From contig OX246743.1 of NCBI GenBank assembly GCA_945910005.1, positions 5,264,018 to 5,328,017 of the forward strand: DNA of 64,000 bases, given 5' to 3'. This DNA comes from Isoperla grammatica (lineage: Eukaryota; Arthropoda; Insecta; Plecoptera; Perlodidae). The notes under the pieces are model-generated. The model was not told where the DNA came from. It did no database searches and saw nothing but the letters and a program-made list of their open reading frames with translations. The position numbers and the translations under genes are program-made. Shown here in pieces: positions 9,737 to 57,212 of the stretch (the first letter of the stretch is position 1; every line of letters begins with the position of its first letter).

Positions 9737-10453
9737 TTTGACGCGTTGATAAGCGAGCGCGTCAATATCTACGAACTTTCTGACGAAGAGATTTCAATGC
9801 TAATACAAACAACAATTAACAACAATTCAAGAATGCGCATTGCAAAAATGTTTCTAATTTCCATAGCTATTATACTTCCCGACATTGTTGGATGCAGTGC
9901 AATGTGCGTTGCTAAGAATTTTCGTGGTCATGTTTTCAACACGGTCCGCCACCGTTACTAACACTTATTGACAGCAATAGAAATGTAATTTCTGCCTCTA
10001 ATACGTATTGGATCGCGTTTACATTAGTATATTCGTGACCGGACAAAAATTTACTATAAGATAGCCACCTCACATTTTGCCGTTACTGCGTTTTAGAAAA
10101 ATATTTTCGAGTAACTTTCGTGTAACTTTGCCAATATTTATCAGATCGCCATTACATTAACATATTCGTGACCAGAAAAAACTGTAGAAAAATCTGGCTA
10201 TCTCACATTTTGCCGCCATTTTGTTTCAGAAAAATATTTTGCAGTAACTATGGTGTAACTTTGTAACTTTTCGAACGATTTTGCCTCAAAACTATACACC
10301 TTCACTCCACATCTAGGCTTGTGGATGGTCCAAATTTCAAGTTGATCGGACTTTCCGTTCGACCGCTATCGACGGACATAAAAACAAAAAAAAAAAAAAA
10401 AAAAAAAAAAACAAACAAACAAACAAACAAACAAAAAAACAGAACGAAGTGCC
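9737..10453 (-). mobile_element. Helitron-like repeat, copy A (3' end lost)
   Basis: This matches 14,136-14,826 in inverted orientation along nearly all its length, including GACGCGTTGATAAGCGAGCG at the left and the A-rich CAAACAAACAAA tract at the right. Its terminal CTAG end is missing, cut where the PLE pseudo-LTR begins at 9,736. The other edge is cut at 10,453, where the truncated PLE begins. A 71-codon open frame at 9,746-9,961 has a diverged counterpart in the other copy, but I do not recognise it and do not call it a gene. Confidence 0.7.
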
Positions 10454-12420
10454 TAACTAAGGGTTTAAACTTTGCGGTAGCGCCGCATCGTTTGCCTGTA
10501 GAGAAGATCATAAGTGAAGTGGAATCCTGCATAATGGGTTTTCAAGATAATAAAGCTGAACAAATTCGCCAAGACATAGCTAAAATATTGCTAAAAGCTA
10601 AGCCCCCTATGAGAAACATAAGTAGTGAAGAGATTAGAGCGCTTAGGGAGCTCCGTGAAGATAAGGATATCTTAGTTCTAGCAGCAGATAAAGGTAATGC
10701 GACGGTCGTTCTTGACAGTAGCGAATATCATGAAAAAATGCTGGCACTTCTAGATGATACTGCTTACATTAAAACTGATCAGGATCCAACTGTGTATCTT
10801 GAAAAGAAAACTAGGTCACTTATTATGTCTACACCTATCGACAAACAAGTGAAAAAATTCATTATTCCTCATGAAAAATCATCACGAGTCCCCAAACTGT
10901 ATGGTTTACCTAAAATACATAAAACAGGTGTTCCGCTTCGCCCTATAGTTAGTGCCTTTGGCTCACCCACACAAGCCCTTGCTAAACACATTTCAAAATT
11001 AATGCAACCTGCAGCAGAAGAAGCTAAGTCGTATGTTAAAAACTCGACTCATTTTGTAGAGATTCTAAAAGATATTAAGTTGAACCCTGGTGACTTACTA
11101 GTTAGTTTTGATGTTGTTTCTCTCTTTACGAAAGTACCAATTAAAGAGGCATTGGAGATCATTGAAGCCAAGAAGGTAGTTCCGACACATATTATTACGT
11201 TGTCTCGTCATTGCATGGCCACTACATATTTTACATACAAAGGTCAGTTCTATAAACAAATTGAAGGAGCTCCAATGGGGTCGCCATTGTCACCAGTGGT
11301 AGCAAATTTGTTCATGGAACATTTTGAAACAACAGCCCTGGAGTCATCTTTACTAAAGCCCCTGTGCTGGCTGCGATACATAGATGATACGTTTGTAGTG
11401 TGGCAGCATGGAATAGATAGGCTTAATGAATTTCATCAACATTTAAACAACCAACACACAAATATAAAACTAACGATGGAAATCGAGGAAGATGGTAAAT
11501 TACCTTTTTTGGATGTACTTGTTCAGAAAAAACCTGATGGAAGTCTTGGCCATACTGTGTTTAGAAAAGCTACTCATACAAACAGATATCTGAATGCAAC
11601 CTCTCACCACCACCCGAGTCAAATCCGGTCTGTTGCTTACACACTTGCTAATAGATCACACAAAATTGCAGATGTGGATAATATTGATGCAGAATATAAA
11701 ATATTACATCATGCCCTTTCATCTAACGGGTTTACGAATAGTTTAATAACAAAGGCATGGCATCGACAGCCTATTTCCACCTCGACGTCACAAGTAGAAC
11801 TAGTAGAACCACCCAAGTATACTGCCTATTTGCCATACATTAAAGGGACAACAGACTTGATCAGTCAACGGCTTCGCCGAGAAAACATACGGACGATCTT
11901 TAATACCGAGAAGAAAATTGGCGAAATGGTGGGAACTTGTAAGGATGTGATTCCTTTAGAAAACAAAGGAGTATATGAGATACCCTGTAATGGCTGTCAT
12001 CACAGTTACATTGGTCAAACAAGTAGAAAATTATCGCAGCGAGTTCAAGAACACCGACTTGCTGTGGACCAAGGCCAGTCAACGTCATCTCTAGCACAAC
12101 ATACAATAAAGGAAGGACATAACATTAACTTTGCCGGGGTACGGCTTCTTGCTTCAGTGGACAATCTTCGAGCGAGGTTAATCCGGGAAGCAATTGAGAT
12201 TGAGAAGCGGCCTCATAACCTGAACAAGCGAGATGACGCTCAAAGACTACCTTCGGCTTGGAAACCGATTGTGGCTAACCTTACAGTCCAGCAGGTGTTC
12301 CCAGCCATCATTCAGCCTGTTGCTGACCATTCTCAGAGTCAAAGAGTTCCAGCAGTGTCTCAGGGGGGTCCCATAACCAGAAGCAAATTCAAGGAGCTTG
12401 CTAGAGCAGCTACCCAGTGA
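10454..12420 (+). pseudogene. Truncated PLE reverse transcriptase/GIY-YIG frame
   Basis: About 655 codons of the PLE protein, lacking the first 183 or so residues. The reverse transcriptase motifs (GAPMGSPLSP, YIDDTFV) and the C-terminal GIY-YIG nuclease (GVYEIPC, SYIGQTSRK) are all present and open. Comparing translations by eye, I find one difference from the full copy, alanine for glycine in the NxTSHHH segment near 11,595. The open frame extends upstream to an ATG at 10,321 through repeat-derived lysine/asparagine-rich codons, which I treat as chance. Without its own N-terminus it is probably non-functional, though the nuclease and polymerase domains are unbroken. Confidence 0.85.
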
Positions 12421-27212: not shown

Positions 27213-30200
27213 CATGAGGCTTAGCCTTGTAGCGTTGCGATGTAACACAATGCGTGAGATGGTTCTGGTATCTGACACAGTCACAGTTTCAAAGTGGCGC
27301 GGTCTGTGTTGATGAGGCTTAGCCTTGTAGCGTTGCGATGTAACACAATGCGTGTGATGGTTCTGGTATCGGACACAGTCACAGTTTCAAAGTGGCGCTG
27401 TCTGTGTTGATGAGGCTTAGCCTTGTAGCGTTGCGATGTAACACAATGCGTGTGATGGTTCTGGTATCGGACACAGTCACAGTTTCAAAGTGGCGCTGTC
27501 TGTGTTGATGAGGCTTAGCCTTGTAGCGTTGCGATGTAACACAATGCGTGTGATGGTTCTGGTATCTGACACAGTCACAGTTACAAAGTGGCGCTGTGTT
27601 GATGAGGCTTAGCCTTGTAGCGTTGCGATGTAACACAATGCTGTGATGGTTCTGGTATCTGACAGTCACAGTTACAAAGTGGAGCTGTGTTGATGAGGCT
27701 TAGCCTTGTAGCGTTGCGATGTAACACAATGCGGGTGATGGTTCTGGTATCTGACAGTCACAGTTACAAAGTGCCGCTGTGTTGATGAGGCTTAGCCTTG
27801 TAGCGTTGCGATGTAACACAATGCGTGTGATGGTTCTGGTATCTGACACAGTCACAGTTACAAAGTGCCGCTGTGTTGATGAGGCTTAGCCTTGTAGCGT
27901 TGCGATGTAACACAATGCGTTCTGGTATCTGACACAGTCACAGTTTCAAAGTGGAGCTGTGTTGATGGGGCTTAGCCTTGTAGCGTTGCGATGTAACACA
28001 ATGCTGTGATGGTTCTGCTATCTGACACAGTCACAGTTTCAAAGTGGCACTGTCTGTGTTGATGGGGCTTAGCCTTGTAGCGTTGCGATGTAACACAATG
28101 CTGGTGATGGTTCTGGTATCTGACACAGTCACAGTTTCAAAGTGGCGCTGTGTTGATGGGGCTTAGCCTTGTAGCGTTGCGATGTAACACAATGCGGGTG
28201 ATGGTTCTGGTATCTGACACAGTCACAGTTTCAAAGTGGCGCTGTGTTGATGAGGCTCAGCCTTGTAGCGTTGCGATGTATCACAATGCTGTGATGGTTC
28301 TGGTATCTGACAGTCACAGTTACAAAGTGGCGCTGTGTTGATGAGGCTTAGCCTTGTAGCGTTGCGATGTAACACAATGCGGGTGATGGTTCTGGTATCT
28401 GACACAGTCACAGTTTCAAAGTGGCGCTGTCTGTGTTGATGAGGCTTAGCCTTGTAGCGTTGCGATGTAACACAATGCGTGAGATGGTTCTGCTATCTGA
28501 CACAGTCACAGTTTCAAAGTGGCGCTGTGTTGATGAGGCTTAGCCTTGTAGCGTTGCGATGTAACACAATGCGGGTGATGGTTCTGGTATCTGACAGTCA
28601 CAGTTACAAAGTGCCGCTGTGTTGATGAGGCTTAGCCTTGTAGCGTTGCGATGTAACACAATGCGTTCTGGTATCTGACACAGTCACAGTTTCAAAGTGG
28701 CGCTGTGTTGATGGGGCTTAGCCTTGTAGCGTTGCGATGTAACACAATGCTGTGATGGTTCTGGTATCTGACAGTCACAGTTACAAAGTGGCGCTGTGTT
28801 GATGAGGCTTAGCCTTGTAGCGTTGCGATGTAACACAATGCTGTGATGGTTCTGGTATCTGACAGTCACAGTTACAAAGTGGAGCTGTGTTGATGAGGCT
28901 TAGCCTTGTAGCGTTGCGATGTAACACAATGCGTGTGATGGTTCTGGTATCTGACACAGTCACAGTTTCAAAGTGCCGCTGTGTTGATGAGGCTTAGCCT
29001 TGTAGCGTTGCGATCTAACACAATGCGTGTGATGGTTCTGGTATCTGACACAGTCACAGTTTCAAAGTGCCGCTGTGTTGATGAGGCTTAGCCTTGTAGC
29101 GTTGCGATGTAACACAATGCTGTGATGGTTCTGGTATCTGACAGTCACAGTTACAAAGTGGAGCTGTGTTGATGAGGCTTAGCCTTGTAGCGTTGCGATG
29201 TAACACAATGCGGGTGATGGTTCTGGTATCTGACAGTCACAGTTACAAAGTGCCGCTGTGTTGATGAGGCTTAGCCTTGTAGCGTTGCGATGTAACACAA
29301 TGCGTTCTGGTATCTGACACAGTCACAGTTTCAAAGTGGCGCTGAGTTGATGGGGCTTAGCCTTGTAGCGTTGCGATGTAACACAATGCTGTGATGGTTC
29401 TGCTATCTGACACAGTCACAGTTTCAAAGTGGCACTGTCTGTGTTGATGGGGCTTAGCCTTGTAGCGTTGCGATGTAACACAATGCTGGTGATGGTTCTG
29501 GTATCTGACACAGTCACAGTTTCAAAGTGGCGCTGTGTTGATGGGGCTTAGCCTTGTAGCGTTGCGATGTAACACAATGCGGGTGATGGTTCTGGTATCT
29601 GACACAGTCACAGTTTCAAAGTGGCGCTGTGTTGATGAGGCTCAGCCTTGTAGCGTTGCGATGTATCACAATGCTGTGATGGTTCTGGTATCTGACAGTC
29701 ACAGTTACAAAGTGGCGCTGTGTTGATGAGGCCTAGCCTTGTAGCGTTGCGATGTAACACAATGCGGGTGATGGTTCTGGTATCTGACACAGTCACAGTT
29801 ACAAAGTGGCGCTGTGTTGATGAGGCTTAGCCTTGTAGCGTTGCGATCTAACACAATGCGGGAGATGGTTCTGGTATCTGACACAGTCACAGTTACAAAG
29901 TGGCGCTGTGTTGATGAGGCTTAGCCTTGTAGCGTTGCGATCTAACACAATGCGGGAGATGGTTCTGGTATCTGACACAGTCACAGTTTCAAAGTGGCGC
30001 TGTGTTGATGAGGCTCTGCCTTGTAGCGTTGCGATGTAACACAATGCGTGTGATGGTTCTGGTATCTGACACAGTCACAGTTTCAAAGTGGCGCTGTCTG
30101 TGTTGATGAGGCTTAGCCTTGTAGCGTTGCGATGTAACACAATGCGTGTGATGGTTCTGGTATCTGACACAGTCACAGTTTCAAAGTGGCGCTGTGTTGA

Positions 30201-33200
30201 TGAGGCTTAGCCTTGTAGCGTTGCGATGTAACACAATGCGTGTGATGGTTCTGGTATCTGACACAGTCACAGTTTCAAAGTGGCGCTGTGTTGATGAGGC
30301 TTAGCCTTGTAGCGTTGCGATCTAACACAATGCGTGTGATGGTTCTGGTATCTGACACAGTCACAGTTTCAAAGTGGCGCTGTGTTGATGAGGCTTAGCC
30401 TTGTAGCGTTGCGATGTAACACAATGCGTGTGATGGTTCTGGTATCTGACACAGTCACAGTTTCAAAGTGGCGCTGTCTGTGTTGATGAGGCTTAGCCTT
30501 GTAGCGTTGCGATGTAACACAATGCGTGTGATGGTTCTGGTATCTGACACAGTCACAGTTTCAAAGTGGCGCTGTCTGTGTTGATGAGGCTTAGCCTTGT
30601 AGCGTGGCGATCTAACACAATGCGTGTGATGGTTCTGGTATCTGACACAGTCACAGTTTCAAAGTGGCGCTGTGTTGATGAGGCTTAGCCTTGTAGCGTT
30701 GCGATGTAACACAATGCGGGTGATGGTTCTGGTATCTGATACAGTCACAGTTTCAAAGTGGCGCTGTGTTGATGAGGCTCAGCCTTGTATAGCGTTGCGA
30801 TGTAACACAATGCGTGTAATGGTTCTGGTATCTGATACAGTCACAGTTTCAAAGTGGCGCTGTGTTTATGAGGCTTAGCCTTGTAGCGTTGCGATGTAAC
30901 ACAATGCGGTGATGGTTCTGGTATCTGACACAGTCACAGTTACAAAGTGGCGCTGTGTTGATGAGGCTTAGCCTTGTAGCGTTGCGATGTAACACAATGC
31001 GGGTGATGGTTCTGGTATCTGACACAGTCACAGTTTCAAAGTGGCGCTGTGTTGATGAGGCTTAGCCTCGTAGCGTTGCGATGTAACACAATGCGTGCGA
31101 TGGTTCTGGTATCTGACACAGTCACAGTTTCAAAGTGGCGCTGTGTTGATGAGGCTTAGCCTTGTAGCGTTGCGATGTAACACAATGCGGGTGATGGTTC
31201 TGGTATCTGACACAGTCACAGTTACAAAGTGGCGCTGTGTTGATGAGGCTTAGCCTTGTAGCGTTGCGATGTAACACAATGCGGGTGATGGTTCTGGTAT
31301 CTGACACAGTCACAGTTTCAAAGTGGCGCTGTGTTGATGAGGCTTAGCCTTGTAGCGTTGCGATGTAACACAATGCGGGTGATGGTTCTGGTATCTGACA
31401 CAGTCACAGTTTCAAAGTGGCGCTGTGTTGATGAGGCTTAGCCTTGTAGCGTTGCGATGTAACACAATGCGTGAGATGGTTCTGGTATCTGACACAGTCA
31501 CAGTTTCAAAGTGGCGCTGTGTTGATGAGGCTTAGCCTTGTAGCGTTGCGATGTAACACAATGCGTGCGATGGTTCTGGTATCTGACACAGTCACAGTTT
31601 CAAAGTGGCGCTGTGTTGATGAGGCTTAGCCTTGTAGCGTTGCGATGTAACACAATGCGTGCGATGGTTCTGGTATCTGACACAGTCACAGTATCAAAGT
31701 GGCGCTGTGTTTATGAGGCTTAGCCTTGTAGCGTTGCGATGTAACACAATGCGTGTGATGGTTCTGGTATCTGACACAGTCACAGTTTCAAAGTGGCGCT
31801 GTGTGATGAGGCTTAGCCTTGTAGCGTTGCGATGTAACACAATGCGGGTGATGGTTCTGGTATCTGACACAGTCACAGTTTCAAAGTGGCGCTGTGTTGA
31901 TGAGGCTTAGCCTTGTAGCGTTGCGATGTAACACAATGCGTTTTATGGTTCTGGTATCTGACACAGTCACAGTTACAAAGTGGCGCTGTGTTCATGAGGC
32001 TTAGCCTTGTAGCGTTGCGATGTAACACAATGCGGGTGATGGTTCTGGTATCTGACACAGTCACAGTTTCAAAGTGGCGCTGTCTGTGTTGATGAGGCTT
32101 AGCCTTGTAGCGTTGCGATGTAACACAATGCGGGTGATGGTTCTGGTATCTGACACAGTCACAGTTTCAAAGTGGCGCTGTGTTGATGAGGCTTAGCCTT
32201 GTAGCGTTGCGATGTAACACAATGCGGGTGATGGTTCTGGTATCTGACACAGTCACAGTTTCAAAGTGGCGCTGTGTTGATGAGGCTTAGCCTTGTAGCG
32301 TTGCGATGTAACACAATGCGGGTGATGGTTCTGGTATCTGACACAGTCACAGTTTCAAAGTGGCGCTGTGTTGATGAGGCTTAGCCTTGTAGCGTTGCGA
32401 TGTAACACAATGCGGGTGATGGTTCTGGTATCTGACACAGTCACAGTTTCAAAGTGGCGCTGTGTTGATGAGGCTTAGCCTTGTAGCGTTGCGATGTAAC
32501 ACAATGCGGGTGATGGTTCTGGTATCTGACACAGTCACAGTTTCAAAGTGGCGCTGTCTGTGTTGATGAGGCTTAGCCTTGTAGCGTTGCGATGTAACAC
32601 AATGCGGGTGATGGTTCTGGTATCTGACACAGTCACAGTTTCAAAGTGGCGCTGTCTGTGTTGATGAGGCTTAGCCTTGTAGCGTTGCGATGTAACACAA
32701 TGCGGGTGATGGTTCTGGTATCCGACACAGTCACAGTTTCAAAGTGGCGCTGTGTTGATGAGGCTTAGCCTTGTAGCGTTGCGATGTAACACAATGCGGG
32801 TGATGGTTCTGGTATCTGACACAGTCACAGTTTCAAAGTGGCGCTGTGTTGATGAGGCTTAGCCTTGTAGCGTTGCGATGTAACACAATGCGGGTGATGG
32901 TTCTGGTATCTGACACAGTCACAGTTTCAAAGTGGCGATGTCTGTGTTGATGAGGCTTAGCCTTGTAGCGTTGCGATGTAACACAATGCGGGTGATGGTT
33001 CTGGTATCTGACACAGTCACAGTTTCAAAGTGGCGCTGTCTGTGTTGATGAGGCTTAGCCTTGTAGCGTTGCGATGTAACACAATGCGTGTGATGGTTCT
33101 GGTATCTGACAGTCACAGTATCAAAGTGGCGCTGTGTTGATGGGGCTTAGCCTTGTAGCGTTGCGATGTAACACAATGCGTGCGATGGTTCTGGTATCTG

Positions 33201-34746
33201 ACGCAGTCACAGTTTCAAAGTGGCGCTGTCTGTGTTGATGAGGCTTAGCCTTGTAGCGTTGCGATGTAACACAATGCGTGTGATGGTTCTAGTATCTGAC
33301 ACAGTCACAGTTTCAAAGTGGCGCTGTGTTGATGAGGCTTAGCCTTGTAGCGTTGCGATGTAACACAATGCGGGTGATGGTTCTGGTATCTGACACAGTC
33401 ACAGTTTCAAAGTGGCGCTGTCTGTGTTGATGAGGCTTAGCCTTGTAGCGTTGCGATGTAACACAATGCGTGTGATGGTTCTGGTATCTGACACAGTCCC
33501 AGTTTCAAAGTGGCGCTGTGTTGATGAGGCTTAGCCTTGTAGCGTTGCGATGTAACACAATGCGTGTGATGGTTCTGGTATCTGACACAGTCACAGTTTC
33601 AAAGTGGCGCTGTGTTGATGAGGCTTAGCCTTGTAGCGTTGCGATGTAACACAATGCGTGTGATGGTTCTGGTATCTGACAGTCACAGTATCAAAGTGGC
33701 GCTGTGTTGATGGGGCTTAGCCTTGTAGCGTTGCGATGTAACACAATGCGTGCGATGGTTCTGGTATCTGACGCAGTCACAGTTACAAAGTGGCGCTGTG
33801 TTGATGAGGCTTAGCCTTGTAGCGTTGCGATGTAACACAATGCGGGTGATGGTTCTGGTATCTGACACAGTCACAGTTTCAAAGTGGCGCTGTCTGTGTT
33901 GATGAGGCTTAGCCTTGTAGCGTTGCGATGTAACACAATGCGGGTGATGGTTCTGGTATCTGACACAGTCACAGTTACAAAGTGCCGCTGTGTTAATGAG
34001 GCTTAGCCTTGTAGCGTTGCGATGTAACACAATGCGGGTGATGGTTCTGGTATCTGACGCAGTCACAGTTACAAAGTGGCGCTGTGTTGATGGGGCTTAG
34101 CCTTGTAGCGTTGCGATGTAACACAATGCGTGTGATGGTTCTGGTATCTGACAGTCACAGTTTCAAAGTGGCGCTGTGTTGATGAGGCTTAGCCTTGTAG
34201 CGTTGCGATGTATCACAATGCTGTGATGGTTCTGGTATCTGACAGTCACAGTTACAAAGTGGCGCTGTGTTGATGAGGCCTAGCCTTGTAGCGTTGCGAT
34301 GTAACACAATGCGGGTGATGGTTCTGGTATCTGACACAGTCACAGTTTCAAAGTGGCGCTGTCTGTGTTGATGAGGCTTAGCCTTGTAGCGTTGCGATGT
34401 AGCACAATGCGTGTGATGGTTCTGGTATCTGACACAGTCACAGTTACAAAGTGGCGCTGTGTTGATGAGGCTTAGCCTTGTAGCGTTGCGATGTAACACA
34501 ATGCGGGTGATGGTTCTGGTATCTGACACAGTCACAGTTTCAAAGTGGCGCTGTCTGTGTTGATGAGGCTTAGCCTTGTAGCGTTGCGATGTAGCACAAT
34601 GCGTGTGATGGTTCTGGTATCTGACACAGTCACAGTTACAAAGTGGCGCTGTGTTGATGGGGTTTAGCCTTGTAGCGTTGCGATGTAACACAATGCGGGT
34701 GATGGTTCTGGTATCTGACACAGTCACAGTTTCAAAGTGGCACTGT
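27213..34746. repeat. 94/98-bp satellite array, about 80 copies
   Basis: The unit contains GATGAGGCTTAGCCTTGTAG, GCGATGTAACACAATGCG, TGATGGTTCTGGTATCTGAC and CACAGTTTCAAAGTGGCGCT. Lengths are 98 bp when GCTGTCTGTGTT is present and 94 when it is GCTGTGTT, with smaller deletions (CACA before GTCACAG, or GTGTGATG after TGC). Block duplications are visible, for example 27,960-28,340 against 29,345-29,725, offset 1,385 bp. The array carries no supported gene. Confidence 0.97.
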
Positions 34747-43608: not shown

Positions 43609-43748
43609 ATCCGCCCGAAATAACACTGCGGCCTCGGGATCAGCAGGTGAAAGCGGGGGGGATCGCTGCCTTCTACTGCGCCGCTAGGGGGGACCCCTCC
43701 CCCGCCATCCAGTGGCGGAAGAACGGGAAGCGGGTATCTGGGACTCAG
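43609..43748 (+). CDS. Lar: LAR-type receptor tyrosine phosphatase, Ig1 exon, first half
   Basis: A 140-nt internal exon. The acceptor is TTTGTTTCTTCCAACAG (43,592-43,608) and the donor CAG|GTAACT at 43,748/43,749. It enters in phase 1 (a G from the previous exon completes Asp) and leaves in phase 0. It encodes 47 residues starting DPPEITLRP, with the Ig cysteine in FYCAARGDP (residue 24) and the core tryptophan in QWRKNGKRV (residue 36). In LAR-family phosphatases this basic WRKNGKRV stretch is the heparan/chondroitin sulfate-binding site of Ig1, important in axon guidance and synapse formation. The partner half lies 12.5 kb downstream. Assignment to LAR (orthologue of vertebrate PTPRF/PTPRD/PTPRS) rests on recognised family sequence. 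Other exons were not found in the window. Confidence 0.9.
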
Positions 43749-43864
43749 GTAACTACCCTTTCTATTTACTTTAATTTCATTAAATTTAATTCAAAATTAC
43801 TTGAAAGTAACCTTTTTAAAGTAACCACCTCATGCATGAATATTACATGAGATGGCAATGATGT

Positions 43865-45930
43865 ACAATATAGTAGAGACGATCACAGCTTTAGATAATA
43901 TGATTATGAAATGTTTTCACGTCCTTGTGTCCTGGTGTATACTTGTCTAGCAACTATTGATTACAACCTCATGATACTGATGATAGTTGACAGTCTCAAT
44001 GCTTTGTATAGCGATGATCACAGCTTTAGATAATATGATTATGAAATGTTTTCACGTCCTTGTGTCCTGGTATATACTTGTCTAGCAACTATTGATTACA
44101 ACCTCATGATACTGATGATAGTTGACAGTCTCAATGCTTTGTATGGAGACGATCCCAGCTTTAGATAATATGATTATGAAATGTTTTCACGTCCTTGTGT
44201 CCCCGTGTATACTTGTCTAGCAACTATTGATTACAGCCTCATGATACTGATGATAGTTGACAGTCACAATGCTTTGAAGAGACGATCCCAGCTTTAGATA
44301 ATATGATTATGAAATCTTTTCACGTCCTTGTGTCCTCGTGTGTACTTGTCTAGCAACTATTGATTACAACCTCATGATACTGATGATAGTTGACAGTCTC
44401 AATGCTTTGTATAGCGACGATCCCAGCTTTAGATAATATGATTATGAAATGTTTTCACGTCCTTGAGTCCTGGCGTATACTTGTCTAGCAACTATTGATT
44501 ACAACCTCATGATACTGATACGTTGACAGTCCCAATGCTTTGTATAGCGATGATCCCAGCTTTAGATAATATGATTATGAAATGTTTTCACGTCCTTGTG
44601 TCCTGGTATATACTTGTCTAGCAACTATTGATTACAACCTCATGATACTGATGATAGTTGACAGTCTCAATGCTTTGTATAGCGACGATCCCAGCTTTAG
44701 ATAATATGATTATGAAATGTTTTCACGTCCTTGTGTCCTGGTATATACTTGTCTAGCAACTATTGATTACAACCTCATGATACTGATGATAGTTGACAGT
44801 CTCAATGCTTTGTATGGAGACGATCCCAGCTTTAGATAATATGATTATGAAATGTTTTCACGTCCTTGTGTCCCCGTGTATACTTGTCTAGCAACTATTG
44901 ATTACAGCCTCATGATACTGATGATAGTTGACAGTCACAATGCTTTGAAGAGACGATCCCAGCTTTAGATAATATGATTATGAAATCTTTTCACGTCCTT
45001 GTGTCCTCGTGTGTACTTGTCTAGCAACTATTGATTACAACCTCATGATACTGATGATAGTTGACAGTCTCAATGCTGTGTATAGCGACGATCCCAGCTT
45101 TAGATAATATGATTATGAAATGTTTTCACGTCCTTGTGTCCTGGTATATACTTGTCTAGCAACTATTGATTACAACCTCATGATACTGATGATAGTTGAC
45201 AGTCTCAATGCTTTGTATGGAGACGATCCCAGCTTTAGATAATATGATTATGAAATGTTTTCACGTCCTTGTGTCCCCGTGTATACTTGTCTAGCAACTA
45301 TTGATTACAGCCTCATGATACTGATGATAGTTGACAGTCACAATGCTTTGAAGAGACGATCCCAGCTTTAGATAATATGATTATGAAATCTTTTCACGTC
45401 CTTGTGTCCTCGTGTGTACTTGTCTAGCAACTATTGATTACAACCTCATGATACTGATGATAGTTGACAGTCTCAATGCTTTGTATAGCGACGATCCCAG
45501 CTTTAGATAATATGATTATGAAATGTTTTCACGTCCTTGTGTCCTGGTGTATACTTGTCTAGCAACTATTGATTACAACCTGATGATACTGATGATAGTT
45601 GACAGTCCCAATGCTTTGTATAGCGACGATCCCAGCTTTAGATAATATGATTATGAAATGTTTTCACGTCCTTGTGTCCTGGTGTATACTTGTCTAGCAA
45701 CTATTGGTTGCAACCCTGGTTGGCCGGCTTAGATTTATGTTTATGATTTATATTTATGATAACTTTATATGTATATTGTACTTTGTTGAATCTTAGCTGT
45801 TGCTTCCATACGATAAATAAATAAATAACTATTGATTACAACCTCATGATACTGATGATGCGTTGACAGTCCCAATGCTTTGTATAGCGACGATCCCAGC
45901 TTTAGATAATACGATTATGAAATGTTTTCG
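43865..45930. repeat. About 134-bp tandem repeat in the LAR intron, about 14 copies
   Basis: The unit contains CCAGCTTTAGATAATATGAT, TATGAAATGTTTTCACGTCC, TTGTCTAGCAACTATTGATT and TACTGATGATAGTTGACAGT. A pair of variant units, one with CCCCGTGTATAC and GATTACAGCC, the next with GAAATCTTTTC and CCTCGTGTGTAC, recurs at about 44,145, 44,815 and 45,215. This shows higher-order block copying. It is interrupted at 45,707-45,826 by a retroelement fragment. Confidence 0.95.
45707..45826 (+). mobile_element. 5'-truncated non-LTR (LINE or SINE) fragment with target duplication
   Basis: 120 bp starting GTTGCAACCCTGGTTGG and ending in an ATAAATAAATAA tail. It is inserted in a satellite unit and flanked by AACTATTG at 45,699-45,706 and 45,827-45,834. 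A short 5'-truncated body, A-rich simple-repeat tail and 8-bp duplication fit target-primed retrotransposition. The family is not identified. Confidence 0.8.
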
Positions 45931-48362: not shown

Positions 48363-48462
48363 TTACCTGATAAAGGGCACATCAGGTAAAGATGGTGTGC
48401 CCTTGGTAGCCCTACAGCAAGTATTTCTTACGAGAAACTAGTAATAAACGAAAATTTGAGAA

Positions 48463-51400
48463 GCCATGTTCTGTGCCATGTCCTCACAGTCCCGGTACCT
48501 GGTCCAGTAGTTCCCAGGCGGCGGGGCTCTACTGCGCATTGTGTCATGTTCTGTGCTATGTCCCCACAGTCCCGGTACCTGGTCCAGGAGTTCCCAGGCG
48601 GCGGGGCTCTACTGCGCATTGTGTCATGTTCTGTGCTATGTCCCCACAGTCCCGGTACCTGGTCCAGGAGTTCCCAGGCGGCGGGGCTCTACTGCGCATT
48701 GTGTCATGTTCTGTGCTATGTCCTCACAGTCCCGGTACCTGGTCCAGGAGTTCCCAGGCGGCGGGGCTCTACTGCGCATTGTGTCATGTTCTGTGCTATG
48801 TCCCCACAGTCCCGGTACCTGGTCCAGGAGTTCCCAGGCGGCGAGGCTCTACTGCGCATTGTGCCATGTTCTGTGCTATGTCCTCACAGTCCCGGTACCT
48901 GGTCCAGGAGTTCCCAGGCGGCGGGGCTCTACTGCGCATTGTGTCATGTTCTGTGCTATGTCCTCACAGTCCCGGTACCTGGTCCAGGAGTTCCCAGGCG
49001 GCGAGGCTCTACTGCGCATTGTGCCATGTTCTGTGCTATGTCCTCACAGTCCCGGTACCTGGTCCAGTAGTTCCCAGGCGGCGGGGCTCTACTGCGCATT
49101 GTGTCATGTTCTGTGCTATGTCCCCACAGTCCCGGTACCTGGTCCAGGAGTTCCCAGGCGGCGGGGCTCTACTGCGCATTGTGTCATGTTCTGTGCTATG
49201 TCCCCACAGTCCCGGTACCTGGTCCAGGAGTTCCCAGGCGGCGGGGCTCTACTGCGCATTGTGTCATGTTCTGTGCTATGTCCCCACAGTCCCGGTACCT
49301 GGTCCAGGAGTTCCCAGGCGGCGGGGCTCTACTGCGCATTGTGTCATGTTCTGTGCTATGTCCTCACAGTCCCGGTACCTGGTCCAGGAGTTCCCAGGCG
49401 GCGGGGCTCTACTGCGCATTGAGCGGTCTGTGTCATGTTCTGTGCTATGTCCTCACAGTCCCGGTACCTGGTCCAGTAGTTCCCAGGCGGCGGGGCTCTA
49501 CTGCGCATTGTGTCATGTTCTGTGCTATGTCCTCACAGTCCCGGTACCTGGTCCAGGAGTTCCCAGGCGGCGGGGCTCTACTGCGCATTGTGTCATGTTC
49601 TGTGCTATGTCCTCACAGTCCCGGTACCTGGTCCAGTAGTTCCCAGGCGGCGGGGCTCTACCGCGCATTGTGTCATGTTCTGTGCTATGTCCTCACAGTC
49701 CCGGTACCTGGTCCAGTAGTTCCCAGGCGGCGAGGCTCTACTGCGCATTGTGTCATGTTCTGTGCTATGTCCTCACAGTCCCGGTACCTGGTCCAGTAGT
49801 TCCCAGGCGGCGGGGCTCTACTGCGCATTGTGACATGTTCTGTGCTATGTCCTCACAGTCCCGGTACCTGGTCCAGGAGTTCCCAGGCGGCGGGGCTCTA
49901 CTGCGCATTGTGTCATGTTCTGTGCTATGTCCTCACAGTCCCGGTACCTGGTCCAGGAGTTCCCAGGCGGCGGGGCTCTACTGCGCATTGTGTCATGTTC
50001 TGTGCTATGTCCCCACAGTCCCGGTACCTGGTCCAGGAGTTCCCAGGCGGCGGGGCTCTACCGCGCATTGTGTCATGTTCTGTGCTATGTCCCCACAGTC
50101 CCGGTACCTGGTCCAGGAGTTCCCAGGCGGCGGGGCTCTACTGCGCATTGTGTCATGTTCTGTGCTATGTCCACACAGTCCCGGTACCTGGTCCAGGAGT
50201 TCCCAGGCGGCGGGGCTCTACTGCGCATTGTGTCATGTTCTGTGCTATGTCCCCACAGTCCCGGTACCTGGTCCAGTAGTTCCCAGGCGGCGGGGCTCTA
50301 CTGCGCATTGTGTCATGTTCTGTGCTATGTCCTCACAGTCCCGGTACCTGGTCCAGGAGTTCCCAGGCGGCGGGGCTCTACTGCGCATTGTGTCATGTTC
50401 TGTGCTATGTCCCCACAGTCCCGGTACCTGGTCCAGGAGTTCCCAGGCGGCGGGGCTCTACTGCGCATTGTGTCATGTTCTGTGCTATGTCCTCACAGTC
50501 CCGGTACCTGGTCCAGGAGTTCCCAGGCGGCGGGGCTCTACTGCGCATTGTGTCATGTTCTGTGCTATGTCCTCACAGTCCCGGTACCTGGTCCAGGAGT
50601 TCCCAGGCGGCGGGGCTCTACTGCGCATTGTGTCATGTTCTGTGCTATGTCCCCACAGTCCCGGTACCTGGTCCAGGAGTTCCCAGGCGGCGGGGCTCTT
50701 CTGCGCATTGTGTCATGTTCTGTGCTATGTCCCCACAGTCCCGGTACCTGGTCCAGGAGTTCCCAGGCGGCGGGGCTCTTCTGCGCATTGTGTCATGTTC
50801 TGTGCTATGTCCCCACAGTCCCGGTACCTGGTCCAGGAGTTCCCAGGCGGCGGGGCTCTACTGCGCATTGTGTCATGTTCTGTGCTATGTCCTCACAGTC
50901 CCGGTACCTGGTCCAGGAGTTCCCAGGCGGCGGGGCTCTACTGCGCATTGTGTCATGTTCTGTGCTATGTCCACACAGTCCCGGTACCTGGTCCAGGAGT
51001 TGCCAGGCGGCGGGGCTCTACTGCGCATTGTGTCATGTTCTGTGCTATGTCCTCACAGTCCCGGTACCTGGTCCAGGAGTTCCCAGGCGGCGGGGCTCTA
51101 CCGCGCATTGTGTCATGTTCTGTGCTATGTCCTCACAGTCCCGGTACCTGGTCCAGGAGTTCCCAGGCGGCGGGGCTCTACCGCGCATTGTGTCATGTTC
51201 TGTGCTATGTCCCCACAGTCCCGGTACCTGGTCCAGGAGTTCCCAGGCGGCGGGGCTCTACTGCGCATTGTGTCATGTTCTGTGCTATGTCCCCACAGTC
51301 CCGGTACCTGGTCCAGGAGTTCCCAGGCGGCGGGGCTCTACTGCGCATTGTGTCATGTTCTGTGCTATGTCCTCACAGTCCCGGTACCTGGTCCAGGAGT

Positions 51401-54400
51401 TCCCAGGCGGCGGGGCTCTACTGCGCATTGAGCGGTCTGTGTCATGTTCTGTGCTATGTCCTCACAGTCCCGGTACCTGGTCCAGGAGTTCCCAGGCGGC
51501 GGGGCTCTACTGCGCATTGTGTCATGTTCTGTGCTATGTCCTCACAGTCCCGGTACCTGGTCCAGGAGTTCCCAGGCGGCGAGGCTCTACTGCGCATTGT
51601 GTCATGTTCTGTGCTATGTCCTCACAGTCCCGGTACCTGGTCCAGGAGTTCCCAGGCGGCGAGGCTCTACTGCGCATTGTGTCATGTTCTGTGCTATGTC
51701 CTCACAGTCCCGGTACCTGGTCCAGGAGTTCCCAGGCGTCGGGGCTCTACTGCGCATTGTGTCATGTTCTGTGCTATGTCCTTACAGTCCCGGTACCTGG
51801 TCCAGGAGTTCCCAGGCGGCGGGGCTCTACTGCGCATTGTGTCATGTTCTGTGCTATGTCCCCACAGTCCCGGTATCTGGTCCAGGAGTTCCCAGGCGGC
51901 GGGGCTCTACTGCGCATTGAGCGGTCTGTGTCATGTTCTGTGCTATGTCCCCACAGTCCCGGTACCTGGTCCAGGAGTTCCCAGGCGGCGAGGCTCTACT
52001 GCGCATTGTGTCATGTTCTGTGCTATGTCCCCACAGTCCCGGTACCTGGTCCAGGAGTTCCCAGGCGGCGAGGCTCTACTGCGCATTGTGACATGTTCTG
52101 TGCTATGTCCTCACAGTCCCGGTACCTGGTCCAGGAGTTCCCAGGCGGCGGGGCTCTACTGCGCATTGTGTCATGTTCTGTGCTGTGTCCCCACAGTCCC
52201 GGTACCTGGTCCAGGAGTTCCCAGGCGGCGGGGCTCTACTGCGCATTGTGTCATGTTCTGTGCTATGTCCTCACAGTCCCGGTACCTGGTCCAGGAGTTC
52301 CCAGGCGGCGGGGCTCTACTGCGCATTGTGTCATGTTCTGTGCTATGTCCCCACAGTCCCGGTACCTGGTCCAGGAGTTCCCAGGCGGCGAGGCTCTACT
52401 GCGCATTGTGTCATGTTCTGTGCTATGTCCTCACAGTCCCGGTACCTGGTCCAGGAGTTCCCAGGCGGCGAGGCTCTACTGCGCATTGTGTCATGTTCTG
52501 TGCTATGTCCTCACAGTCCCGGTACCTGGTCCAGGAGTTCCCAGGCGGCGAGGCTCTACTGCGCATTGTGTCATGTTCTGTGCTATGTCCTCACAGTCCC
52601 GGTACCTGGTCCAGGAGTTCCCAGGCGGCGGGGCTCTACTGCGCATTGTGTCATGTTCTGTGCTATGTCCTCACAGTCCCGGTACCTGGTCCAGGAGTTC
52701 CCAGGCGGCGGGGCTCTACTGCGCATTGTGTCATGTTCTGTGCTATGTCTCCACAGTCCCGGTACCTGGTCCAGGAGTTCCCAGGCGGCGGGGCTCTACT
52801 GCGCATTGTGTCATGTTCTGTGCTATGTCCTCACAGTCCCGGTACCTGGTCCAGGAGTTCCCAGGCGGCGGGGCTCTACTGCGCATTGTGTCATGTTCTG
52901 TGTTATGTCCTCACAGTCCCGGTACCTGGTCCAGGAGTTCCCAGGCGGCGGGGCTCTACTGCGCATTGTGTCATGTTCTGTGCTGTGTCCCCACAGTCCC
53001 GGTACCTGGTCCAGGAGTTCCCAGGCGGCGGGGCTCTACTGCGCATTGTGTCATGTTCTGTGCTATGTCCTCACAGTCCCGGTACCTGGTCCAGGAGTTC
53101 CCAGGCGGCGGGGCTCTACTGCGCATTGTGTCATGTTCTGTGCTATGTCCTCACAGTCCCGGTACCTGGTCCAAGAGTTCCCAGGCGGCGGGGCTCTACT
53201 GCGCATTGTGTCATGTTCTGTGCTATGTCCCCACAGTCCCGGTACCTGGTCCAGGAGTTCCCAGGCGGCGGGGCTCTACTGCGCATTGTGTCATGTTCTG
53301 TGCTATGTCCTCACAGTCCCGGTACCAGGTCCAGGAGTTCCCAGGCGGCGGGGCTCTACTGCGCATTGTGTCATGTTCTGTGCTATGTCCTCACAGTCCC
53401 GGTACCTGGTCCAGGAGTTCCCAGGCGGCGGGGCTCTACTGCGCATTGTGTCATGTTCTGTGCTATGTCCTCACAGTCCCGGTACCTGGTCCAGGAGTTC
53501 CCAGGCGGCGGGGCTCTACCGCGCATTGTGTCATGTTCTGTGCTATGTCCTCACAGTCCCGGTACCTGGTCCAGGAGTTCCCAGGCGGCGGGGCTCTACT
53601 GCGCATTGTGTCATGTTCTGTGCTGTGTCCCCACAGTCCCGGTACCTGGTCCAGGAGTTCCCAGGCGGCGGGGCTCTACTGCGCATTGTGTCATGTTCTG
53701 TGTTATGTCCTCACAGTCCCGGTACCTGGTCCAGGAGTTCCCAGGCGGCGGGGCTCTACTGCGCATTGTGTCATGTTCTGTGCTGTGTCCCCACAGTCCC
53801 GGTACCTGGTCCAGGAGTTCCCAGGCGGCGGGGCTCTACTGCGCATTGTGTCATGTTCTGTGTTATGTCCTCACAGTCCCGGTACCTGGTCCAGGAGTTC
53901 CCAGGCGGCGGGGCTCTACTGCGCATTGAGCGGTCTGTGTCATGTTCTGTGCTATGTCCTCACAGTCCCGGTACCTGGTCCAGGAGTTCCCAGGCGGCGG
54001 GGCTCTACTGCGCATTGTGTCATGTTCTGTGCTATGTCCTCACAGTCCCGGTACCTGGTCCAGGAGTTCCCAGGCGGCGGGGCTCTACTGCGCATTGTGT
54101 CATGTTCTGTGCTATGTCCTCACAGTCCCGGTACCTGGTCCAGGAGTTCCCAGGCGGCGGGGCTCTACTGCGCATTGTGTCATGTTCTGTGCTATGTCCC
54201 CACAGTCCCGGTACCTGGTCCAGGAGTTCCCAGGCGGCGGGGCTCTACTGCGCATTGTGTCATGTTCTGTGCTATGTCCTCACAGTCCCGGTACCTGGTC
54301 CAGGAGTTCCGGCTCTACTGCGCATTGTGTCATGTTCTGTGCTGTGTCCTCACAGTCCCGGTACCTGGTCCAGGAGTTCCCAGGCGGCGGGGCTCTACTG

Positions 54401-56334
54401 CGCATTGTGTCATGTTCTGTGCTATGTCCTCACAGTCCCGGTACCTGGTCCAGGAGTTCCCAGGCGGCGGGGCTCTACTGCGCATTGTGTCATGTTCTTT
54501 GCTATGTCCTCACAGTCCCGGTACCTGGTCCAAGAGTTCCCAGGCGGCGGGGCTCTACTGCGCATTGTGTCATGTTCTGTGCTATGTCCTCACAGTCCCG
54601 GTACCTGGTCCAGGAGTTCCCAGGCGGCGGGGCTCTACTGCGCATTGTGTCATGTTCTGTGCTATGTCCTCACAGTCCCGGTACCTGGTCCAGGAGTTCC
54701 CAGGCGGCGGGGCTCTACTGCGCATTGTGTCATGTTCTGTGCTATGTCCTCACAGTCCCGGTACCTGGTCCAAGAGTTCCCAGGCGGCGGGGCTCTACTG
54801 CGCATTGTGTCATGTTCTGTGCTATGTCCCCACAGTCCCGGTACCTGGTCCAGGAGTTCCCAGGCGGCGGGGCTCTACTGCGCATTGTGTCATGTTCTGT
54901 GCTATGTCCTCACAGTCCCGGTACCTGGTCCAGGAGTTCCCAGGCGGCGGGGCTCTACTGCGCATTGTGTCATGTTCTGTGCTATGTCCTCACAGTCCCG
55001 GTACCTGGTCCAGGAGTTCCCAGGCGGCGGGGCTCTACTGCGCATTGTGTCATGTTCTGTGCTATGTCCTCACAGTCCCGGTATCTGGTCCAGGAGTCTC
55101 CCAGGCGGCGGGGCTCTACTGCGCATTGTGTCATGTTCTGTGCTATGTCCTCACAGTCCCGGTACCTGGTCCAGTAGTTCCCAGGCGACGGGGCTCTACT
55201 GCGCATTGTGTCATGTTCTGTGCTATGTCCTCACAGTCCCGGTACCTGGTCCAGGAGTTCCCAGGCGGCGGGGCTCTACTGCGCATTGTGTCATGTTCTG
55301 TGCTATGTCCTCACAGTCCCGGTACCTGGTCCAGTAGTTCCCAGGCGGCGGGGCTCTACTGCGCATTGTGTCATGTTCTGTGCTATGTCCTCACAGTCCC
55401 GGTACCTGGTCCAGGAGTCTCCCAGGCGGCGGGGCTCTACTGCGCATTGTGTCATGTTCTGTGCTATGTCCTCACAGTCCCGGTACCTGGTCCAGGAGTT
55501 CCCAGGCGGCGGGGCTCTACTGCGCATTGTGTCATGTTCTGTGCTATGTCCTCACAGTCCCGGTACCTGGTCCAGTAGTTCCCAGGCGACGGGGCTCTAC
55601 CGCGCATTGTGTCATGTTCTGTGCTATGTCCTCACAGTCCCGGTACCTGGTCCAGGAGTTCCCAGGCGGCGGGGCTCTACTGCGCATTGTGTCATGTTCT
55701 GTGCTATGTCCTCACAGTCCCGGTACCTGGTGCAGGAGTTCCCAGGCGGCGGGGCTCTACTGCGCATTGTGTCATGTTCTGTGCTATGTCCCCACAGTCC
55801 CGGTACCTGGTCCAGGAGTTCCCAGGCGGCGGGGCTCTACTGCGCATTGTGTCATGTTCTGTGCTATGTCCTCACAGTCCCGGTACCTGGTCCAGTAGTT
55901 CCCAGGCGACGGGGCTCTACTGCGCATTGTGTCATGTTCTGTGCTATGTCCTCACAGTCCCGATACCTGGTCCAGGAGTTCCCAGGCGGCGGGGCTCTAC
56001 TGCGCATTGTGTCATGTTCTGTGCTATGTCCCCACAGTCCCGGTACCTGGTCCAGTAGTTCCCAGGCGGCGGGGCTCTACTGCGCATTGTGTCATGTTCT
56101 GTACTCTATGTCCCCACAGTCCCGGTACCTGGTCCAGTAGTTCCCAGGCGGCGGGGCTCTACTGCGCATTGTGTCATGTTCTGTACTCTATGTCCTCACA
56201 GTCCCGATACCTGGTCCAGGAGTTCCCAGGCGGCGGGGCTCTATTGCGCATTGTGTCATGTTCTGTGCTATGTCCTCACAGTCCCGGTACCTGGTCCAGG
56301 AGTTCCCAGGCGGCGGGGCTCTACTGCGCATTGA
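48463..56334 (+). repeat. 80-bp array of duplicated LAR splice acceptor plus exon start, 97 truncated copies
   Basis: Each unit is 28 nt of intron end (TGTCATGTTCTGTGCTATG then TCCTCACAG) joined to 52 nt matching the start of the authentic LAR exon at 56,282, encoding SRYLVQEFPGGGALLRI. The first exon-like start is 48,490 and the authentic one 56,282. The distance of 7,792 bp equals 97 x 80 plus the indels I can see: four +9 units at 49,421, 51,430, 51,920 and 53,930, one -10 near 54,311, two +1 near 55,097 and 55,417, and two +2 near 56,103 and 56,192. The AG of the acceptor is present in every copy I read, with pyrimidine variants TCCTCACAG, TCCCCACAG, TCCACACAG and TCCTTACAG. Some units carry CAGTAG, a stop in the exon frame. 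Long open frames through the array (up to 1,887 codons) arise because no frame of the consensus unit contains a stop. Confidence 0.97.
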
Positions 56335-56435
56335 GCCTGTTCGGTCCGGCCGGGACGACGCCCAGTATGAGTGCGTGGCTGAGAACGGCGTCGGCGACGC
56401 TGTCAACGCGGAGGCGACGCTCACAGTCTACGAGA
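56282..56435 (+). CDS. Lar: LAR-type receptor tyrosine phosphatase, Ig1 exon, second half
   Basis: A 154-nt internal exon. The acceptor TATGTCCTCACAG ends at 56,281 and the donor is GAGA|GTGAGT at 56,435/56,436. It enters in phase 0, so it joins the 43,609-43,748 exon in frame (GTQ then SRYLV), and leaves in phase 1. It encodes 51 residues: SRYLVQEFPGGGALLRIEP, then RDDAQYECVAENGVGDAV with the second Ig cysteine (residue 31) in the DxAxYxC motif, ending LTVYE. Joined with the first half it gives a complete Ig domain of about 98 residues. The first 52 nt are identical to the array consensus, so coding sequence is part of the homogenised repeat. The remaining 102 nt are unique and GC-rich. The Ig2 exon was not found downstream within the window. 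Confidence 0.92.
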
Positions 56436-57212
56436 GTGAGTACCCCACATTCTGTACGCATGCGCAGTCGTACTCGAAACTTATATTGAAATCGCGCGAA
56501 ATTATCTTTTGTTTAAAAATCATTCTCAATGCTTTTCAACATCGAAATAAAAAACATGAAAATTTACCACATTTGTTTGAGTATACATTTTATTTTCAGA
56601 AACACGATCAGCTTAGAGAAATTTATGTTCCTGGAAATCAAAATTATTTTAACGTGTGCGTTTTTTGGGCTGTTGTTATAAACTTGAATCCCCTGATTCC
56701 TGCTAAACCGAATTAGTCGTGTGGGTGTTATGTGGAGCCTTGCCGTGTGATGGGCCGATGTAGTCTGTAATATTGATGCCAGTGTGAATCATGTACCAGC
56801 AAGTAACTTACGGCAAATCAAAGATGGAGCTCAGTCGCCTGGAAGTCCCATGTCTTTTTGCGCTAGATCCGTTTTGAGATACCTCATACATGTTTGGTAC
56901 TTCGTGGGATGTCTAAATAAAGGGAACTAAGCAGTATGTTAAAATTTCTACAAATCAGCCATGAAAAATTACGACTAGATTACAATGCATTGGACTAGAT
57001 TAGTAGTTAATATATTAAAATAAGTGTTTTAGTAAAGTAGAACACATATAAATATCCAAATATCTATGACGGTATCTCGTATCAAAATCATTGTTTAAGC
57101 AATCCAAGTTTACCTAATGAACCAATGATAACTGCTAAAAACTCGATATTAAAATTTAAATAAAAATGTGCTTTTGAATGATTTCTTATAAGAATGTGCA
57201 TCTATATTCTAT
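56436..57212. other. LAR intron, no further exon seen
   Basis: AT-rich sequence starting with a consensus donor. Frames open past the donor to 56,716 only as intron read-through. Confidence 0.55.

Follow-up and report, generated by a model that had tools for sequence, protein, structure and literature searches.

The 3' splice site in front of the second half of the first immunoglobulin domain (Ig1) of a LAR-type gene is repeated 98 times in tandem, and the last copy alone leads into the full-length exon. We consider it probable (about 0.8) that the array is a neutral minisatellite of the "mirage" type lying over the LAR Ig1 acceptor, and that it is tolerated since exon definition selects the intact exon. 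Two exons of one Ig domain lie within the window (the whole stretch of 64,000 nucleotides analysed, C13:5264018-5328017, from a genome of 874 Mb in 603 contigs), arranged with the array as follows.

43609..43748, + strand: first-half exon of LAR Ig1, 140 nt, phase 1 to 0 (translation, match to Drosophila Lar, one genome match)
43749..43754, + strand: upstream 5' splice site, gtaact (sequence)
43874..45715, + strand: separate intronic minisatellite, 135 bp x 13.7, beginning 125 bp past the donor (TRF)
48462..56253, + strand: 97 truncated units, with about 28 nt of the intron 3' end, a CAG acceptor and the first 52 exon nt (TRF, sequence)
56254..56281, + strand: authentic acceptor region, which is copy 98 and has the same letters as the array consensus (sequence)
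56282..56435, + strand: authentic second-half exon of LAR Ig1, 154 nt, with the second Ig cysteine (genome match, translation, PDB match)
56436..56441, + strand: downstream 5' splice site, gtgagt (sequence)

When exons 43609-43748 and 56282-56435 were joined, they encoded a single Ig domain of 98 residues, with phase 0 at the junction and phase 1 at both outer ends. The top PDB matches of this domain were Drosophila Lar (3pxj, 2yd1), with 72 of 97 residues identical; the Ig1 domain is of the LAR type and the gene is classed with the LAR-type receptor phosphatases (type IIa RPTP), in agreement with the identity proposed in the preliminary description. Seven phosphatase-domain matches, putatively of the same gene, were found on the same strand about 160 kb downstream (C13:5479932-5490709), and the match at C13 5488794 is a D2 domain of LAR/PTPRS type, its best matches being PTPRS and LAR. 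A tblastn search with Drosophila Ig2 recognised no Ig2 exon in the window's final 7.5 kb, returning the Ig1 exons, weak matches and nothing else. The first exon with its flanks had a single match across the genome; for the authentic second exon, all 98 genome matches listed fell in the array, one of them at full length. No exon sequence was noticed in the intronic minisatellite at 43874-45715.

The array was delimited by TRF at 48465-56333 (period 80, 98.0 copies, 96% matches). Counting of acceptor cores gave 98, with the first exon base at 48490 in copy 1 and at 56282 in copy 98; the earlier count of 97 truncated copies plus the authentic one was thereby confirmed, and the array and exon borders given earlier agreed with the positions and splice junctions found here. 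The 97 spacings between cores were 80 bp (88 cases), 89 bp (4), 81 bp (2), 82 bp (2) and 70 bp (1), so that the 80-bp unit of 28 + 52 nt held for 88 spacings and the statement that every unit has this form did not, the four 89-bp units retaining 9 extra nt. A candidate branch-point A was seen by eye at -24 in the array units, and no GTRAG-type donor was found inside the array upstream of the authentic exon. What is called a splice site within the array is defined by sequence identity to the authentic acceptor, and this identity is close. The authentic 80-nt acceptor region is identical to the array consensus; 28 of the 97 decoys equal the authentic unit over -28 to +52, and 51 over -28 to +10. 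Since 28 decoys match the authentic acceptor letter for letter from -28 to +52, the choice among them would have to come from position or from sequence beyond these limits. The 98 units comprise 39 distinct types, which are interspersed; exact self-matches within the array run to 335 bp at most, and exact-prefix TAG variants are confined to units 1-23 and 84-96. The mean difference to the authentic unit, taken by decile along the array, was 1.4, 1.0, 1.0, 0.8, 1.4, 0.8, 0.8, 0.67, 0.75 and 1.17. The copy number excludes a chance resemblance of the units to the exon border. The tandem units cross the intron-exon border and adjoin an authentic, intact gene exon, two of the features of a mirage minisatellite. 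All three plus-strand frames are open over long stretches of 48390-56716 (up to 1914 codons), where a gene finder may make false protein calls.

According to the preliminary description, an Ig domain complete with its second cysteine results from the last acceptor alone, and this is right and can be put more sharply: when exon 1 was continued into each decoy in turn and translated as far as the 56436 donor, 0 of 97 gave an in-frame, stop-free exon. A stop was met within the exon in 96 readouts, and decoy 97 was out of frame. In an array of pure consensus units 32 of the 97 decoys would be productive. An in-frame TAG is present in 13 of the 98 units, and when the TAG units of the real array were read as GAG, 12 decoys became productive; closure of the decoys owes much to the TAG units, yet the effect is not significant. 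After unit order was shuffled 400 times (mean of 4.4 productive decoys), zero productive decoys were obtained in 65 shuffles (16%), and for this reason the absence of productive decoys is no sign of selection. Selection for non-productive decoys was considered and set aside as unsupported. The distinct exonic substitutions comprised 5 synonymous, 6 nonsynonymous and 1 stop change, against 46, 103 and 4 possible (93 of 98 units counted, 5 being left out where indels shift the register); any constraint is therefore no more than weak.

Beyond the LAR array, we found six more arrays or two-copy duplications in the genome that span an exon border. On C14, 17 acceptors with a 135-bp period lie at a PTPRN-like exon seen via the phosphatase search; PTPRN2 (2qep) is the best match over the exon length, and the two-domain PTPRS and LAR chains outscore it through matching twice. 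All 16 decoys of this array are in frame, but each reading stops at codon 45, which is the TAG of the next acceptor. C17 has a donor-side array of 77-bp period with at least 20 donors that match, or 21 if one differing by a single letter is counted. C5 has 9 acceptors in view with a 74-bp period, 9 donors in view with a 72-75-bp period, and a 142-bp duplication that gives two copies of an acceptor; C20 has a two-copy donor-side duplication of 162 bp at a kinase exon (PKG-like by eye). Taking the site at the intact exon as authentic, the decoys in view over the seven arrays, LAR included, number 97, 16, 20, 8, 8, 1 and 1, and 0 of these 151 are both in frame and open. The intron part of the units is about 28-31 nt in the LAR and PTPRN-like arrays and about 17 nt at L040, and an A stands at -24 in the LAR and at -23 in the PTPRN-like array (by eye). 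A shared origin of the arrays that was branch-point-anchored or RNA-templated was considered and set aside, the intron part at L040 being just about 17 nt. Edge units are diverged, which hides any microhomology at the duplication junction.

The phosphatase search gave 81 matches, or 65 distinct exon matches, of which 30 with enough flank were assessed and two were dropped for short flank. An array or duplication overlapped 5 of the 30 exons, and all five span a splice site, although three of them fall inside one 30-kb stretch of C5 and are not independent, and the C5 cases were drawn from the last six stretches of the phosphatase locus list. Locus L036 (four exons) had been chosen for its already visible array; without it, 4 of 26 exons have a splice-site-spanning array. 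At the kinase loci 1 of 6 (C20) had a border-spanning duplication, in a sample that was not blind, every fourth row being taken from a chosen start and the doubled match on C20 having been noticed beforehand. L043 and the second exon of L032 were left out of the count, their arrays abutting the exon without spanning its border.

Some further arrangements were seen at these loci. On the donor side of the second exon of L032 (C17), an intronic 120-bp array directly follows the phosphatase exon, with repeated gtgagt donor-like motifs and without exon sequence. On the donor side of L039 (C5), the units of an intronic array span the greater part of the region around the authentic 5' splice site, without the GT (by eye). 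In the kinase case on C20, CGTAG stands just before the second copy of the duplicated exon part, at L047:822-920 (by eye); judged from the letters, CGTAG might serve as an acceptor and the second copy as an alternative half-exon.

Minisatellites (period of at least 9, length of at least 200) made up 25% of a 140-kb sample (14 arbitrary loci of 10 kb each) and 43% of the window, and in a genome this rich in minisatellites some arrays are expected to fall across exon borders. Three of the 14 arbitrary loci (L010, L016, L018) were 62-100% minisatellite. The window has a further very large minisatellite at 27214-34746 (94 bp x 80, TRF). It also holds two long, near-identical frames in opposite orientation (6953-9493 on the minus strand and 10267-12420 on the plus strand), which by eye have the look of a Penelope-like retroelement with a reverse transcriptase and a GIY-YIG-like end.

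We propose that a segment straddling the acceptor of the LAR Ig1 exon was tandemly duplicated and then grew to 98 units, probably by ordinary minisatellite turnover (tandem duplication, slippage and unequal exchange). The expanded array sits entirely to the intron side, and the exon itself is intact. Splicing by exon definition would use the sole acceptor that has the full 154-nt exon and a downstream donor, so that the last acceptor is presumably the one used in LAR, and the 97 decoys would mostly be ignored; rare use of a decoy would give a frameshifted or stopped mRNA, probably cleared by NMD. We assume no function of the array. When a tandem duplication crosses an acceptor, the only full exon stands at the downstream end; when it crosses a donor, at the upstream end. 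In either case the authentic site has the shortest distance across the exon, and the decoys are closer across the intron, so that exon definition would protect such genes, whereas intron definition would break them. The authentic site is exon-nearest in every array because of this geometry, and its position is hence no independent support for an exon-side rule. In the parts of PMC9225289 drawn on here, the upstream, intron-proximal acceptor (in the LAR array, a decoy) wins in classical constructs; section 9 adds that human 3' splice site events show an overall preference for upstream acceptors, one that is significantly reduced under exon definition. According to the portion of PMC5389562 used, two acceptors on one pre-mRNA may be occupied jointly, inhibiting splicing; as duplicated acceptors inhibited splicing in vitro, the LAR array may not be harmless. 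Together with the related arrays at other acceptors and at donors, the LAR array forms a natural series of 2 to 98 copies in which exon definition could be tested against the intron-proximity rule.

The array could instead be a regulatory rheostat, where some transcripts use decoys and are destroyed and where the length of the array would determine how much functional LAR is made. The suggestion in the preliminary description that array length could tune the level of correct mRNA found no support here. This would fit the non-productive outcome for 97 of 97 decoys and the inhibition of splicing by paired acceptor occupation on one pre-mRNA (PMC5389562, in the portion cited), but all-unproductive decoys arise by chance in the 16% of shuffles given above, similar arrays lie at unrelated exons, and the amphioxus cases are suggested to splice normally in the parts of PMC3087553 and PMC3902484 relied on; we hold a rheostat to be decidedly unlikely. 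A more general proposal, that about one exon in six has a multiplied splice site (up to 98-fold), that the exon-side rule is near-absolute and that a leak scaling with length would tie the dosage of LAR or other genes to repeat number, appears unlikely.

Inflation of a few copies during assembly is a concern, in that repeats of such length are hard to assemble and a mirage in the amphioxus draft was misassembled (PMC3087553, as cited in part); it is nevertheless very unlikely for an array with 39 interspersed unit types and no exact self-match longer than 335 bp, in chromosome-scale contigs, and with several comparable arrays elsewhere in the genome. That the exon pair is a pseudogene or dead exon outside any expressed LAR gene seems highly improbable to us: frames and splice sites are intact in both exons, each exon has a single full match in the genome, the identity to Drosophila Lar reaches 72/97, and exons of a LAR-type phosphatase lie downstream in the same orientation. 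The long open plus-strand frames, at up to 1914 codons, would allow the array itself to be a coding or alternative exon giving a long repetitive insert from an inner acceptor; this is extremely unlikely, as no readout from exon 1 through any of the 97 decoys arrives at the 56436 donor in frame and free of stops, and TAG units lie near both array ends. A neutral, mirage-type minisatellite remains our preferred reading. If the small-sample frequency holds, this would be a second genome, probably of an arthropod, with widespread mirages after amphioxus, and models in which introns are gained through tandem duplication could draw on it.

The preliminary description knew of no described case of this kind, and here it has to be corrected: the amphioxus globin gene BflGb6 has a matching architecture, and PGBD5 is an amphioxus mirage as well. 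Adh3 and TnC are reportedly further amphioxus cases, as cited in the amphioxus papers. Turri 1995 is said to have described the human IFI6 (6-16) minisatellite with multiple splice donors, and Reed and Maniatis 1986 reportedly used constructs with a duplicated beta-globin acceptor. The repeat unit of human IFI6 is far shorter than that of the LAR array. In the parts of PMC4526556 used, IFI6 repeat units are reported to act as donors, yielding three mRNAs; like the LAR array, this minisatellite supplies several splice sites of one kind, but donors and not acceptors. In the beta-globin constructs, as in LAR, identical acceptors compete and the exon behind the upstream one is cut short (14, 55 or 205 nt in the constructs of PMC5389562, as far as cited, versus 52 nt in the LAR array), with two engineered copies versus 98 natural ones.

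In amphioxus, minisatellites that cross intron-exon borders go by the name of mirages, and they are suggested to leave regular splicing undisturbed (PMC3087553, PMC3902484, both cited in part). In a limited search of the literature on mirages and minisatellites, the relevant reports met concern amphioxus and none an arthropod. Like the mirages of BflGb6/BflGb9 and PGBD5 (the last a triplication, PMC3902484), the LAR array consists of border-spanning tandem units that run into the authentic exon; many copies retain splice signals and several genes per genome are hit, and the amphioxus cases, in the portions cited, include the mirror arrangement at a donor. The BflGb6 mirage joins the 3' intron end to the 5' part of the exon, in 6 and 3 units of 150-160 bp in two haplotypes (PMC3087553, which also describes an aberrantly assembled draft copy), whereas the LAR array has 98 units of about 80 bp, or about 16 times the unit number of the longer BflGb6 haplotype. 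Splicing of amphioxus mirages was examined by RT-PCR, and the LAR array is known from genomic sequence. The host LAR is insect-like, closest to Drosophila among solved structures; amphioxus, at first considered as the host because of its mirages, was set aside on this ground, and the host is probably no cephalochordate. A search for the GFP family, run without a positive control, returned no match and has no bearing on this. What is new here, set beside these cases, is the size of the array, its insect-like LAR host and the frequency of border-spanning arrays.
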